In this document: positions 1-62,810 of the stretch, one piece after another
Layout: the number at the start of each line of letters is the position of its first letter
Position numbering within the stretch: the stretch's first letter is position 1
Source of the DNA: an uncultured Ruminococcus sp.
GTDB lineage: Bacteria; Bacillota; Clostridia; Oscillospirales; Acutalibacteraceae
NCBI GenBank assembly: GCA_902762375.1
Contig: CACWNY010000001.1
Span: 1 to 64,000 of the forward strand
DNA: 64,000 bases
Direction: 5' to 3'
Made by a program: the position numbers and the translations under genes
Notes under the pieces: model-generated
What the model was told of the DNA's origin: nothing
What the model saw: the letters and a program-made list of their open reading frames with translations, nothing else
Database searches by the model: none

Positions 1-88
1 TTTTGAAGATTCTTCGTCGCTTTCGCTCCTCAGAATGACAACAATATATTATTTCAAACAGGCTTTTTTCTTAAGTTGATGACATTGC
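1..88 (-). mobile_element. MITE-like element (8-bp TSD family), partial at window edge
   Basis: This is the end of a copy of the same element seen at 21647-21783 and 61547-61655, in the opposite orientation. It ends at position 88 with GACATTGC, the complement of the terminal inverted repeat GCAATGTC. The following CTATCAGG (89-96) would be its target duplication, but the other end lies outside the window. It sits at the same point in the flanking modular repeat as the 21.6 kb copy. Confidence 0.7.
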
Positions 89-7602: not shown

Positions 7603-7737
7603 CCGAACGAAGTGAGCCGAAAAAGTTTTTGTCAAACTTTTTTCAAAAAGTTTGTGGGGTCAAGGGGCAAAGCCCCTTGTGGGATTTTCAAGGGTGAAAC
7701 CCTTGAAACAGGATTTTTAAGGGCGGTAGCCCTTAAA
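7603..7737 (-). repeat. Modular hairpin repeat, copy 4 (core half plus reverse arm)
   Basis: It begins with CCGAACGAAGTGAGCC, then CAAAC-type S3, S2, a compensated S1 (AAGGGT/ACCCTT) and a standard S1. The terminal TTAA provides the TAA stop of the malic enzyme gene (7733-7735). Confidence 0.88.
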
Positions 7738-21613: not shown

Positions 21614-21853
21614 TTAAAGGGCTTTGCCCTTTAAAATCCTACAAGGGCAATGTCATCAACTTAAGAAAAAAGCCTTTTAGAAATAATATATTGCTGTCAT
21701 TCTGAGAAGCGAAAGCGACGAAGAATCCTATTAAGATTCCTCACACTGCGTTCGGAATGACAACCTTAAGTTGACGACATTGCCTACAAGGGGCTTTGCC
21801 ACTTGACCCTACAAGCCTTTGAAAAGGCTTGACCGAAACTTTTAATTGTCACC
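21614..21853 (+). repeat. Modular hairpin repeat, copy 10 (forward monomer split by a MITE)
   Basis: S1 (to 21632) is separated from S2-S3 (AAGCC-type)-tail by the 137-bp element at 21647-21783. S2 carries an uncompensated change (CCAC in place of CCCC), so this copy is partly decayed. Confidence 0.88.
21639..21791 (+). mobile_element. MITE-like element with 8-bp target duplication, nested in repeat copy 10
   Basis: The element spans 21647-21783. Its ends are GCAATGTCATCAACTTAAG and the complement of GCAATGTCGTCAACTTAAG, one mismatch in 19. CTACAAGG occurs immediately on both sides (21639-21646 and 21784-21791) as a target duplication. Removing the element and one duplicate restores a normal repeat copy. 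The interior has TGTCATTCTGAG and CGACGAAGAATC segments. There is no coding capacity, so it must have been moved by an enzyme encoded elsewhere. Confidence 0.85.
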
Positions 21854-53559: not shown

Positions 53560-56500
53560 TTATCCTACAGTAATTTCGCAAGTGGCGACCAGTCCATCTG
53601 ACGCAATTACCTTGACAGTTGCCGAACCTGAACCTCTTGCGACAACTCTACCACTGGAATTTACTGTGGCAACAGCAGTATTGGTACTTTTGAAAGTATA
53701 AGTTACCGTATCGTCCGCAGGAGTAAGGGTAGGAGTGAGAACATATTGTTCGGCAACATTCATTGTCAGACTGGTTTTATCCAGTGTCAGAGTTTTCGGC
53801 AAAGTGACATTGACCGTACAGGTTGCTGTCAGACCGCTGTCTGTTCTGACCGTAATTGTTGCCGTACCCTCATCTCTTGCCACAATTCTGCCACTGGAAT
53901 TGACAGTCGCTACCGCAGGATTATTACTCTTGAAAGTATAAGTAACCTGTGTAGCAGGAGTTACGGTTGGTGTCAGAGTATACTGTTGGGCGACATTCAT
54001 ATCCAGAGTTGTTTTGTCAAGAGTAAGTGTTGTGCTTGATTTTACGGTAACAGTGCAGGTTGCCGTAAGACCGTTGGAAGTTCTCACGGTAATTTTTGCC
54101 GTACCCTCACCTCTTGCCACAACTCTGCCGTTGGAATTAACAGTCGCTACCGCAGGATTACTACTCTTGAAAGTATATTCCGTAATGGCATCAGACGGGG
54201 TAATTGTCGGAATAAGTGTATACATATCCTTGATATTCATTGTCAGTTTTGTTTTGTTGAGGGTAAGTGTTTCGGGACTTTTATGTACTGTGACTTGGCA
54301 GGTAGCTTTTTTGCCGTTTTCTGTGATAACAGTAATCGTTACTGTACCCTCACCTCTTGCCACAACTCTACCGCTGGAATTGACTGTTGCGACAGTCGTA
54401 TTACTACTCTTGAAAGTATAAGTTGTTGCTACCGCAGGTGTTACCGTAGGCGTAAGCGTATACATTTCTTTTACACCAAGAGAAAGTGTTGTCTTATCAA
54501 GTGTAACAGACTGAGGATAAATCTTTACGGTTACCTTACAGGTAGCTGTTTTGCCGTCAACAGTGGTTGCGGTGATGGTTGCTGAACCCGTAGCCTTAGC
54601 CGTGACAGTACCGTTTTCGTCCACTGTGGCAACAGAAGTCTTGCTACTTGTCCATGTGACTTGCGGAGTGTAATATTCAGGCGTAAATGTTGCGGTAAGC
54701 GTGGCGGTTGTTCCTTTTTCGATAGTCATGGCTGACTTGTTCAGGACAATATCACCTGAATTATAATGTACCGTTGCTGTATTGAAAGGAGCAATACTTG
54801 GTTTGGTCATAGTCTCCCATTGTTCTTGTGTACCCAGATAATAGATATCCATAAGTTTTGCGTCAGTGAAGAAAGCATAATTATCAATCTGTTCCAGAGT
54901 AGCAGGAATGACAACGCTTTCCAGATTATCACAGCCGGCAAAAGTTCTGTAACCTAATTCCGTAATACCTTTGGGAACAACCAGATTTTTCAAAGATTTG
55001 CAGTCAGAGAAAGCATAAGCACCTATCTGTGTTACACTGTCAGAAATTTTAACTTCGGCAAGTCTTAAACAGCTTTGAAATGCGTTGGCGTAAATCGTAA
55101 GCACATCGTCAGGAATTTCTATATAGGTAAGAGAAGAACAGTTACGGAATGCACTGCTGCCAATCTGACCGACAGAAGAGGGTATAGTAATATTTTCCAG
55201 ATTTGAACAGTTATAGAACATACCGCTTCCGATTGCAGAAAGTGAGGCAGGTAATTTAACTGTTTTCAGAGCGGTACAGCCCTCAAAAACAGAATTGCCC
55301 AATGTGACCACACTGTCAGGAATAGTCATGGAAGTCAGTGAAGTACAGTAGGCAAAGGCAGAGCTGTCTATTGTTGCCACACCGGAAGAAATCTGTACAT
55401 TTTTCAGAGCGGAACAGTTGTAGAATGCACTGCTGTTAATTTTCTGAATACCATCAGGAATGGAAACAGAAGTAAGAGCTGTACAATTTCTGAAAGTGCC
55501 ATTACCCAATGTAGTAAGAGAAGAAGAAATACTTACACTTTTCAGATTAGAGCAAGCGTCAAACAGATAATTTCCGATAGAGGTCACACTATTCGGAATA
55601 GTCACAGAAGTCAGACCTGACTTAGTGAAAGCATTATCATTTATACCGGTAACTGTATTGGGAATACTGATTGTTTTCAACGATGAACAGCCATTAAAGG
55701 CATTAGCGTAGATTTTGGTAACACCAACAGGAATATTTACCGATGTCAGGCTGGTGCAGTTACTCAAGACACTGTTGGCTATTTCTGTAATTCCGGAGGG
55801 AAGAACTAACCTAGTCAGAGCGGAACAGCCGGAAAAAGCAGAGCTTTGTATTGAAGTCACACTTTCGGGAATATTGACATTGACAAGAGCGGTACAGTTA
55901 AAAAATACAGCTGAACTGATGGTTGTAACGCCGTCAGGAATAGTTACCTGTTGTAAGCCTGTACAGTTTGCAAAGAAGTGACCGGGAATAGTTTTCCATG
56001 TAGAGGGAACAGTAAAAGAAGTGATATTATTGCAGTGTTCCAGAATATTACCACCTACAGAAGTTACGGTATTGGGAATAGTAAGGCTGTTCAGACCGGA
56101 ATATGCAAAGGCATAAGTTTTAATATTGGTTACGGTTGAAGGGATAGTGAATGAAGTCATTGCCGTACAGCCATAGAAAGCATGGTCACCGATTTCAGTA
56201 ATTGCTCCATTGAAATTCACTTTAGTAAGTGATGTACAACCGCTGAAAATTCCGCTGGGAATTCTGGTGATTTTACCGGGTAAAGTGACCTGTGTGAACG
56301 AAGTGCAGTTCAGAAAAGCATAAGGACCTATCAGGGTAATGTTTTCAGAAAGTGAAATTCCCTGCAGATTGATACAGTCGGCGAAAGCATAATTTCCGAT
56401 ATTGGTAACACTTGCGGGAATGGAAATCTGTTCCAAAGCCTTACAGTTTCGGAATAAGGCTTCTCCGAGAATATGGATATTGTCAGGCAGCTGAACATTG

Positions 56501-57282
56501 TTCAAGGCAAAGCAATTATGGAAAACATAGGAATCCAGTGCAGTAACGGAATTGGGAATAGATATGGCGGTTAATTGTTCACAGTCACTGAAAGCGGCGA
56601 TACCAATTTCCGTAACAGTGTTCGGGATAACAATATTGTTAAGTACTTTACAATTCTGAAACGCATAACCACCGATTTTCAAAAGATGATTTGGTAAGCT
56701 GACCGAAGCAAGTTTACTGCAATAGCGGAATGTATTATTTTCAATGGCAGTAACGCTGTCAGGAATATTGATACTTGTCAGACTTGAACAACCGGAAAAC
56801 GCAGATGTGCCTATCGTGGTGAGTGAATCAGGTAAGGTAATGGAAGTGATACTATTACAATAATTGAATGCACTGCTGTTGATGGTTTGCAAGTGGTCAG
56901 ATAATACAACTTCGGATAAATTATAGCAGGCGTAGAATGCCCATTGTCCGATAGAGATTACCGTATCAGGAATGGTAACAGAAATGATAGAACGGTTATT
57001 GCTGAAAGCACTGTCACCGATAGCCACAACACTTTTATCATCAATGGTATCAGGAATAACAACAGTAGCAGCTGTACCGTTATATTTTTTAATTGTAACG
57101 GTATTATTTTCTACAGTATAGGTAAAGTCTCCATAGGTGTAAGTATCGGTTGCTTTTGATATTTCTCTTGCTTGTGCATTGACGGTTACTTGCGGTGTTT
57201 GAGCAGCCGACACGACCGCCATCGAACTTTGCAGCAACAAAGCTATCATAATACATGACAAACCTTTTTTCAGAATTTTCAT
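53560..57282 (-). CDS. Large secreted BspA-like LRR protein with five Big_2 domains
   Basis: A 1240-residue exported protein. The signal peptide is about residues 1-27. After a TYGDFTYTVENNTVTIKKYNG region come about 32 LRR_5 repeats of 22-23 residues (pattern FxxCxxLxxVxIPxxVTxIxxxAF) to about residue 800. Five Big_2 domains follow with near-identical FKSSNxAVATVNSSGRVVARGEG segments. It ends in CEITVG with no sortase, dockerin or membrane anchor, so it is probably released or non-covalently held. LRR/Big_2 proteins often mediate adhesion, but the ligand is unknown. The close similarity among the Big_2 copies suggests recent internal duplication. Confidence 0.93.
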   Translation of the reverse strand: MKILKKGLSCIMIALLLQSSMAVVSAAQTPQVTVNAQAREISKATDTYTYGDFTYTVENNTVTIKKYNGTAATVVIPDTIDDKSVVAIGDSAFSNNRSIISVTIPDTVISIGQWAFYACYNLSEVVLSDHLQTINSSAFNYCNSITSITLPDSLTTIGTSAFSGCSSLTSINIPDSVTAIENNTFRYCSKLASVSLPNHLLKIGGYAFQNCKVLNNIVIPNTVTEIGIAAFSDCEQLTAISIPNSVTALDSYVFHNCFALNNVQLPDNIHILGEALFRNCKALEQISIPASVTNIGNYAFADCINLQGISLSENITLIGPYAFLNCTSFTQVTLPGKITRIPSGIFSGCTSLTKVNFNGAITEIGDHAFYGCTAMTSFTIPSTVTNIKTYAFAYSGLNSLTIPNTVTSVGGNILEHCNNITSFTVPSTWKTIPGHFFANCTGLQQVTIPDGVTTISSAVFFNCTALVNVNIPESVTSIQSSAFSGCSALTRLVLPSGITEIANSVLSNCTSLTSVNIPVGVTKIYANAFNGCSSLKTISIPNTVTGINDNAFTKSGLTSVTIPNSVTSIGNYLFDACSNLKSVSISSSLTTLGNGTFRNCTALTSVSIPDGIQKINSSAFYNCSALKNVQISSGVATIDSSAFAYCTSLTSMTIPDSVVTLGNSVFEGCTALKTVKLPASLSAIGSGMFYNCSNLENITIPSSVGQIGSSAFRNCSSLTYIEIPDDVLTIYANAFQSCLRLAEVKISDSVTQIGAYAFSDCKSLKNLVVPKGITELGYRTFAGCDNLESVVIPATLEQIDNYAFFTDAKLMDIYYLGTQEQWETMTKPSIAPFNTATVHYNSGDIVLNKSAMTIEKGTTATLTATFTPEYYTPQVTWTSSKTSVATVDENGTVTAKATGSATITATTVDGKTATCKVTVKIYPQSVTLDKTTLSLGVKEMYTLTPTVTPAVATTYTFKSSNTTVATVNSSGRVVARGEGTVTITVITENGKKATCQVTVHKSPETLTLNKTKLTMNIKDMYTLIPTITPSDAITEYTFKSSNPAVATVNSNGRVVARGEGTAKITVRTSNGLTATCTVTVKSSTTLTLDKTTLDMNVAQQYTLTPTVTPATQVTYTFKSNNPAVATVNSSGRIVARDEGTATITVRTDSGLTATCTVNVTLPKTLTLDKTSLTMNVAEQYVLTPTLTPADDTVTYTFKSTNTAVATVNSSGRVVARGSGSATVKVIASDGLVATCEITVG

Positions 57283-61522: not shown

Positions 61523-61538
61523 AAAATAATATATCCCC

Positions 61539-61663
61539 CGAACGAAGCAATGTCGTCAACTTAAGAAAAAAGCCTTTTCAAAATAATATATTGCTGTCAT
61601 TCTGAGGAGCAAAAGCAACGAAGAATCTTCAAAAGATTCCTCATGACGACATTGCCGAACGAA
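61539..61663 (+). mobile_element. MITE-like element with 8-bp target duplication CGAACGAA
   Basis: The 109-bp element spans 61547-61655 and begins GCAATGTCGTCA with its exact complement at the right end. CGAACGAA lies on both sides (61539-61546 and 61656-61663). The target is the core CCGAACGAAGTGAGCC of a modular repeat copy. Compared with the 21.6 kb copy it lacks about 30 bases near the right end. There is no coding capacity. Confidence 0.87.
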
Positions 61664-61760
61664 GTGAGCCTTAAAAGTTTTTGTCAAACTTTTTTCAAAA
61701 AGTTTGTGGGGTCAAGGGGCGAAGCCCCTTGTGGGATTTTTAAGGGCAAAGCCCTTAAAC
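61656..61760 (-). repeat. Modular hairpin repeat, copy 25 (core half plus reverse arm)
   Basis: It starts in the core (CGAACGAAGTGAGCC), with CAAAC-type S3, S2 and S1 and no S0. The MITE insertion at 61547-61655 lies in the core of this copy. The left arm expected beyond the MITE is missing. Confidence 0.88.
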
Positions 61761-61784: not shown

Positions 61785-62810
61785 ATGAATGCTGAAAAGA
61801 TGTTAAAAAAACAGGCAAAAACAATTTTAGCCAGAGATAACTGGGCAAAATCCATTACAGGATTTCTGATGGTACTGTTAGTTTTAGGGATAGGTTTTAT
61901 TGTCATCAACATTGCCACGCTGTTTATCGGCAGTCTTTTTACTGATGACGGAAGCATTAATTTTGCCAATATTGGTATCATTAATATTATTCTTTGTCTG
62001 CTGATTTGTGTGGGAGCGTTAGCCGTATTGATATTGATGTCGCCGTTGTATACAGGATATATCAGATTTATTGCCGACTGTCGTGACGGCGACAGCGGTG
62101 ATATCAACGATATTTTCTATTATTTCAGCAAAGAGAAATATTTCGAAACCGTTCAGTTCAATATTTATCTCTTTATCAAGAAAGCGGTATATTTGTTATT
62201 GTTTTCCCTGCCTGTGGTAGGATTGCTGTTACTTTCCGATAATTCTCTCTACCAGACCGCTTTACAGATAGGTGCAGTATGGGTAGGCGGAGCGTGTCTG
62301 TTCGGATATTTTTTTATTTCCCGTCTGTATATTCTGTCTGAATATTTATATGTCAGAGGTTTTCATTACGAAAAAGAATCGGATATCGCCAAAGCGTCAA
62401 AATATATCGTCAAGAGAAACTTAGGCAAAGTTATGGGAATATATGTATCGTATCTTGGGTGGCTGATATTGTGTTTTCTGGTGATACCCATTGTGTTTGT
62501 TTATCCCTATTTCAAACATACCGCTGTATTGAGCTACTCCTATCTTTACGATATCGAAAACAGTAATCCCCAATCTCCACTGTATCAATCCGATAAACCG
62601 TCAGAACCCAATCCGCCTGTTTCTGAAATCCAACCTCAGGAAACCCAATTCTCCGAAACTCAAGCCGAAGAAACCCAATTCCCTGAAATTCAACCCGAAG
62701 AAACCCAATTCTTCGAAACTCAAGCCGAAGAAACCCAATTCCCCGAAACTCAACCCGAAGAAACCCAATTCCCCATTTCTGAAACGGAACAGTCTGACGA
62801 TGACAATTAA
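61785..62810 (+). CDS. DUF975-type membrane protein with a C-terminal 10-residue tandem repeat
   Basis: A 341-residue membrane protein with about five or six hydrophobic segments (residues 20-245), matching DUF975: KMLKKQAKTILARDNWAKSI at the N-terminus and YIRFIADCRDGDSGDINDIF. The function of the family is unknown. The C-terminal 80 residues are soluble and carry about four and a half copies of a decapeptide, EETQFPETQP/EETQFSETQA, alternating in pairs. The stop and the last two residues (Asp-Asn) are encoded by the tail of repeat copy 26. GAAAGGAA precedes ATG 61785 by 11 bases. Confidence 0.82.
   Translation: MNAEKMLKKQAKTILARDNWAKSITGFLMVLLVLGIGFIVINIATLFIGSLFTDDGSINFANIGIINIILCLLICVGALAVLILMSPLYTGYIRFIADCRDGDSGDINDIFYYFSKEKYFETVQFNIYLFIKKAVYLLLFSLPVVGLLLLSDNSLYQTALQIGAVWVGGACLFGYFFISRLYILSEYLYVRGFHYEKESDIAKASKYIVKRNLGKVMGIYVSYLGWLILCFLVIPIVFVYPYFKHTAVLSYSYLYDIENSNPQSPLYQSDKPSEPNPPVSEIQPQETQFSETQAEETQFPEIQPEETQFFETQAEETQFPETQPEETQFPISETEQSDDDN
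62640..62776 (+). repeat. In-frame 30-bp tandem repeat in the DUF975 gene
   Basis: About 4.5 units of 30 bases with the shared GAAGAAACCCAATTC block encode a Glu/Thr/Gln/Pro-rich acidic tail. Alternating units are more alike, so the higher-order period is 60 bases. Such arrays can change length by slippage. Confidence 0.88.

Follow-up and report, generated by a model that had tools for sequence, protein, structure and literature searches.

Copies of a short non-coding element with IS4-type ends and 10-bp target duplications in an uncultured Ruminococcus genome

In insertion sequences of the IS4 subgroup, the ends follow the signature -AATR--------WTW----, and the direct repeats are 10-13 bp long (De Palmenaer et al. 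2008, PMC2266710, Table 1). IS4-family ends are also used non-autonomously, by the MIC231/IS231 mobile insertion cassettes of the Bacillus cereus group, which have duplications of 10-12 bp (cited in PMC2266710), and MITECca01 of Cardinium (PMC9769881) is an example, in a bacterial genome, of a short non-coding element that shares its ends with a parental IS. Here we describe a non-autonomous transposon (MITE) in a 64,000-nucleotide stretch of DNA from an uncultured Ruminococcus sp. (from here on, the window). It resembles the IS4 subgroup in its end signature and in the length of its direct repeats, and intact elements bearing its ends show the YREK motif and are matched by NF033592, whereas the MITE itself lacks a transposase gene and has about one tenth of the size. 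It shares with MIC231 the non-autonomous use of IS4-family ends and duplications of similar length. IS231 ends, however, start with CAT, and passenger genes are present in the cassettes, whereas the MITE is non-coding. In contrast to the MITE, MITECca01 is ~240 bp long and has a parent of the IS982 family in the same genome.

A reading of the sequence without database searches (the sequence-only reading) had quoted the 12-mer GCAATGTCGTCA as the end of the MITE. With one mismatch allowed, the window contains this 12-mer 5 times, compared with 0.21 times expected from shuffles (none of 100 shuffles reached 5). The inverted ends and the direct repeat flanking them are indeed present. However, the base preceding CAATG varies across the genome (G, C, or A), and the outermost G and C of the quoted end therefore belong to the target and not to the element. 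Because these two bases had been counted as element, the duplication had been given as 8 bp; it is in fact a perfect 10-bp duplication of CCGAACGAAG (Table I), which indicates a different IS family. The right copy of CCGAACGAAG at the same time forms the initial 10 bp of another, dispersed palindromic repeat (61655-61759). In uninterrupted copies of this host repeat (e.g. at window position 7604), the CGAACGAAG motif is present only once, and thus the left copy of CCGAACGAAG is a true duplication. Both further window copies that had been reported are present, with limits revised as shown in Table I.

Table I. Coordinates of the MITE copies, their target-site duplications, and related IS4-type sequences
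Feature	Position or source	Strand	Description
MITE as assembled	61548..61654	+	107 bp, CAATGTCGTCA...TGACGACATTG; true length probably ~133 bp
Left target-site duplication CCGAACGAAG	61538..61547	.	Perfect 10-bp match to 61655-61664
Left terminal inverted repeat CAATGTCGTCAACTTAAG	61548..61565	+	18 bp; end common to ~46 own-genome loci and to intact IS4-family elements elsewhere
Right terminal inverted repeat TGACGACATTG	61644..61654	-	11 bp as printed; 18 bp in full copies
Right target-site duplication CCGAACGAAG	61655..61664	.	Start of dispersed palindromic repeat
Probable assembly-collapse junction	61643..61644	.	96-97 bp into element; right arm short by about 26 bp
Second MITE copy	21648..21782	+	135 bp, 18-bp ends; inserted in palindromic repeat
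Left target-site duplication CCTACAAGGG, second copy	21638..21647	.	Perfect 10 bp
Right target-site duplication CCTACAAGGG, second copy	21783..21792	.	Perfect 10 bp
Third MITE copy	1..87	-	Truncated by contig start; contig begins inside element
Decayed IS4-type transposase fragment	C29:838-1251 (L090)		Own genome
Decayed IS4-type transposase fragment	C33:12596-12907 (L120)		Own genome; carries YREK motif
Intact IS, L243	Tannerellaceae		1451 bp; same ends, perfect 10-bp duplication
Intact IS, L264	Lachnospiraceae COE1		2036 bp, partly masked; same ends, perfect 10-bp duplication
Intact IS, L277	Clostridium hydrogenum		1593 bp; same ends, perfect 10-bp duplication
Intact IS, L289	Ruminococcus RUG12166		1420 bp; same ends, perfect 10-bp duplication
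Intact IS, L297	Viral collection		1526 bp; same ends, without duplication
L301	Window's own taxonomic family		Ends with one mismatch, 10-bp duplication
L302	Window's own taxonomic family		Ends with two to three mismatches, 10-bp duplication
L299	Window's own taxonomic family		Similar, more end mismatches

The MITE gave 42 BLAST matches in its own genome, and its end CAATGTCRTCAACTTAAG, when at most 2 mismatches were allowed, was found there at 64 places (43 forward and 21 reverse) compared with none for the reversed control pattern; when grouped, these places form about 46 loci, each having an exact 18-nt end on one side or both. By looking for each left flank again beyond the element, we detected perfect duplications at 22 distinct elements, 10 bp long in all but one (11 bp, in contig C53, which appears twice in the duplication table, so that its 23 rows represent 22 elements). 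The 10-mers on the two sides match within each copy but vary between copies, placing the flanking repeats outside the element, as had been supposed; the other genomic copies likewise have the anticipated matching ends and duplications, the latter being 10-11 bp and not 8 bp long. The elements are thus short, non-coding, and numerous, with 18-bp ends and a separate target-site duplication for each copy, as is characteristic of a MITE. Two-ended copies are mostly 122-138 bp long, and the commonest clean length is 133 bp. Two elements (C29:2141-2273 and C29:20631-20779) have the same ends with unrelated or rearranged interiors, as expected if only the ends matter; the former has a 10-bp duplication and an unrelated interior of 97 bp. 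Further, two copies with both ends (C19:10094 and C5:34029) have no matching duplication, owing either to a misjoin or to recombination. We note that, in related genera (L154, L166, L157, L171, L186, and L251), the same ends bound short elements, 163-307 bp long, whose interiors are unrelated and some of which have 10-bp duplications. The loci bearing the terminal repeat in relatives are short MITEs with unrelated interiors and no adjacent transposase.

The end CAATGTCRTCAACTTAAG agrees with the IS4-subgroup signature at every conserved position, and the duplications of the MITE fall within the range of that subgroup. An exact-end scan of genome and viral collections revealed intact IS elements of 1.4-2.0 kb with the same ends, four of them with perfect 10-bp duplications (Table I); because the first five intact elements had been sought by an exact match to the end, the sharing of ends is in part selected. 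Over 25 bp, the left end of the MITE matches one end of the IS from Clostridium hydrogenum base for base, and viral contigs contain five stretches with the ends, one of which holds an intact IS. The transposases of L289 and L297 score above the cut-off of NF033592 (IS4 family transposase), and the Y(2)R(3)E(6)K motif is present in all eight transposases compared, which are only about 21-36% identical in pairs. Measured against the spacing criteria of the IS4 subgroup (D-D, 60-110 residues; D-E, 100-150 residues), the D-D spacing is 76-82 residues, the second D being missed by the pattern in two of the eight, and the D-E spacing is 110-111 residues in three transposases and 90-91 residues in three. 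A search of solved structures gave no sequence match for the L289 transposase. Overall, we consider it very likely that this is an IS4-family MITE mobilised in trans by an IS4-type transposase and that the printed 107-bp form is a collapsed ~133-bp copy. We infer movement by cut-and-paste: ~133 bp of non-coding DNA with its 18-bp inverted ends would be recognised by an IS4-type DDE transposase given in trans, which would excise the MITE and paste it elsewhere, producing the 10-bp (once 11-bp) duplication. GC-rich, partly palindromic 10-mers are the preferred targets, and, as these abound in the palindromic intergenic repeats of the genome, most copies lie there.

A non-mobile palindromic repeat (REP/BIME-like or a terminator), with the flanking repeats forming part of it, would accord with the strong hairpin into which the MITE folds (z = -5.8) and with its position among palindromic intergenic repeats; a search of Rfam gave no family that fits the MITE and one chance-level hit in the neighbouring repeat. 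This explanation is nevertheless refuted by the copy-specific duplications and is opposed by the IS4-family elements bounded by the same ends and by the empty orthologous sites, and we regard it as very improbable. As the sequence-only reading had proposed a look for such sites in relatives, we note that both window loci lack the MITE in the congener G003. At the locus of the 107-bp copy, only a few bases separate the two genes in G003 (73% identical genes), and both the MITE and the palindromic repeat next to it are missing. At the 21648 locus, about 49 bp in G003 take the place of 313 bp in the window, and MITE and repeat are likewise both missing. Because the host repeat is missing there too, these empty sites are not base-precise. 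Mobilisation by another IS family, one giving 8-bp duplications, has in its favour only the earlier 8-bp count and is hardly credible, given that the duplications are 10 bp (once 11 bp) long and that the ends match those of IS4-type elements. The call of a non-autonomous transposon thus stands, on the number of loci and perfect duplications, the IS4-family elements with the same ends, and the empty orthologous sites.

The length of 109 bp originally assigned to the window copy is 107 bp as printed, and this too is probably an assembly artefact of an element of ~133 bp, with about 26 bases lost. Among the one-ended copies in which the contig continues (n = 25), 23 are forward and 2 are reverse (binomial p = 2e-5), and 23 of the 25 retain the low-coordinate end; because contig orientation is arbitrary, this asymmetry is not biological. 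In 22 of these 23 copies, the retained length is 87-106 bp, counted from the low-coordinate end in either element orientation, which indicates a break at a fixed distance and not at a fixed place in the element. Contigs that end within the element stop 87-99 bp in (119 bp in one case), and the copy at C37:54721 still has an NNNN join (C37:54818) at the same depth, with the two sides overlapping. Further, in two-ended copies, short stretches are duplicated or lost at about 97 bp, and the break in the window copy lies 96-97 bp in. Clean full copies (C29:68584 and those in C19 and C53) are 133 bp long, as is a copy in the congener G004. The assembler would collapse a ~133-bp copy where a contig reaches about one k-mer into the repeat. 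Among the other copies with a single end, some may have arisen by real deletion. That the 107-bp form is instead a real short subtype, mobile in its own right and with a right end of 11 bp, as the sequence-only reading had taken it, would agree with three copies that have both outer ends and perfect 10-bp duplications: the one at 61548-61654, C4:16130 (107 bp), and C7:18813 (104 bp). However, the junctions of these short forms all differ, the right side keeping TGACGACATTG, GACGACATTG, or CGACATTG, and all three lie near 97 bp from the low-coordinate end, at the same distance as the one-sided breaks described above, so that a short subtype appears unlikely. Given that a collapse is probable, the 107-bp length should not be used. 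More generally, when such repeats are studied in draft genomes, the length of a single copy and the occurrence of one-ended copies can be products of assembly, and this origin can be read from a strand asymmetry that is impossible for biology.

The MITE targets GC-rich, partly palindromic sequences, most of them inside an abundant palindromic intergenic repeat. Position 1 of the duplications is C in 21 of the 23 rows and position 10 is G in 16 (22 elements), with 61% G+C compared with 40% in the window; palindromic pairs average 1.83 of 5 compared with 1.24 in window 10-mers (p = 0.003), and 15 of the 23 rows have a GC hairpin module no more than 35 bp away compared with 4% of random window positions, the rows not being fully independent because related target sequences recur. 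Duplications of intact IS elements also include palindromes, e.g. AGCAGCTGCT (L299). This describes an IS4-type MITE family that is common to several genera of one bacterial family and has a clear target preference. The host repeat is a ~105-nt mosaic of palindromic modules that occupies many intergenic gaps (61655-61759, 7603-7707, and many others) and has very many copies in the same genome and in congeners; as it is missing from the two orthologous G003 sites, it seems to be dynamic itself. It is conceivable, if not quite our favoured view, that the MITE and its IS4-type mobilisers home to GC-rich, partly palindromic 10-mers at the edges of these repeats, with one repeat family serving as a safe landing site for another and the two families spreading together between genes.

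An intact transposase in the same genome is not a defining feature of a MITE. No intact transposase of the IS4 type was found in the 119-contig draft of this genome, and the copies are thus either relics of a lost partner or have a partner absent from the draft, as could be the case for a multicopy IS. The sequence-only reading had proposed a search for the terminal repeat beside a transposase gene; none of the DDE_Tnp_1 genes of the genome has these ends within reach, and we rejected them as partners. Of the two decayed transposase fragments in Table I, neither has the terminal repeat at its ends, and the one in C29 has no match in ten end-bearing relatives and is therefore not the common mobiliser. 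Finally, elsewhere in the window, a 341-amino acid reading frame without a Pfam match (61785-62810) contains a 30-nt tandem repeat at 62623-62802, and a 1240-amino acid reading frame at 53560-57282 has internal repeats of ~240 nt.
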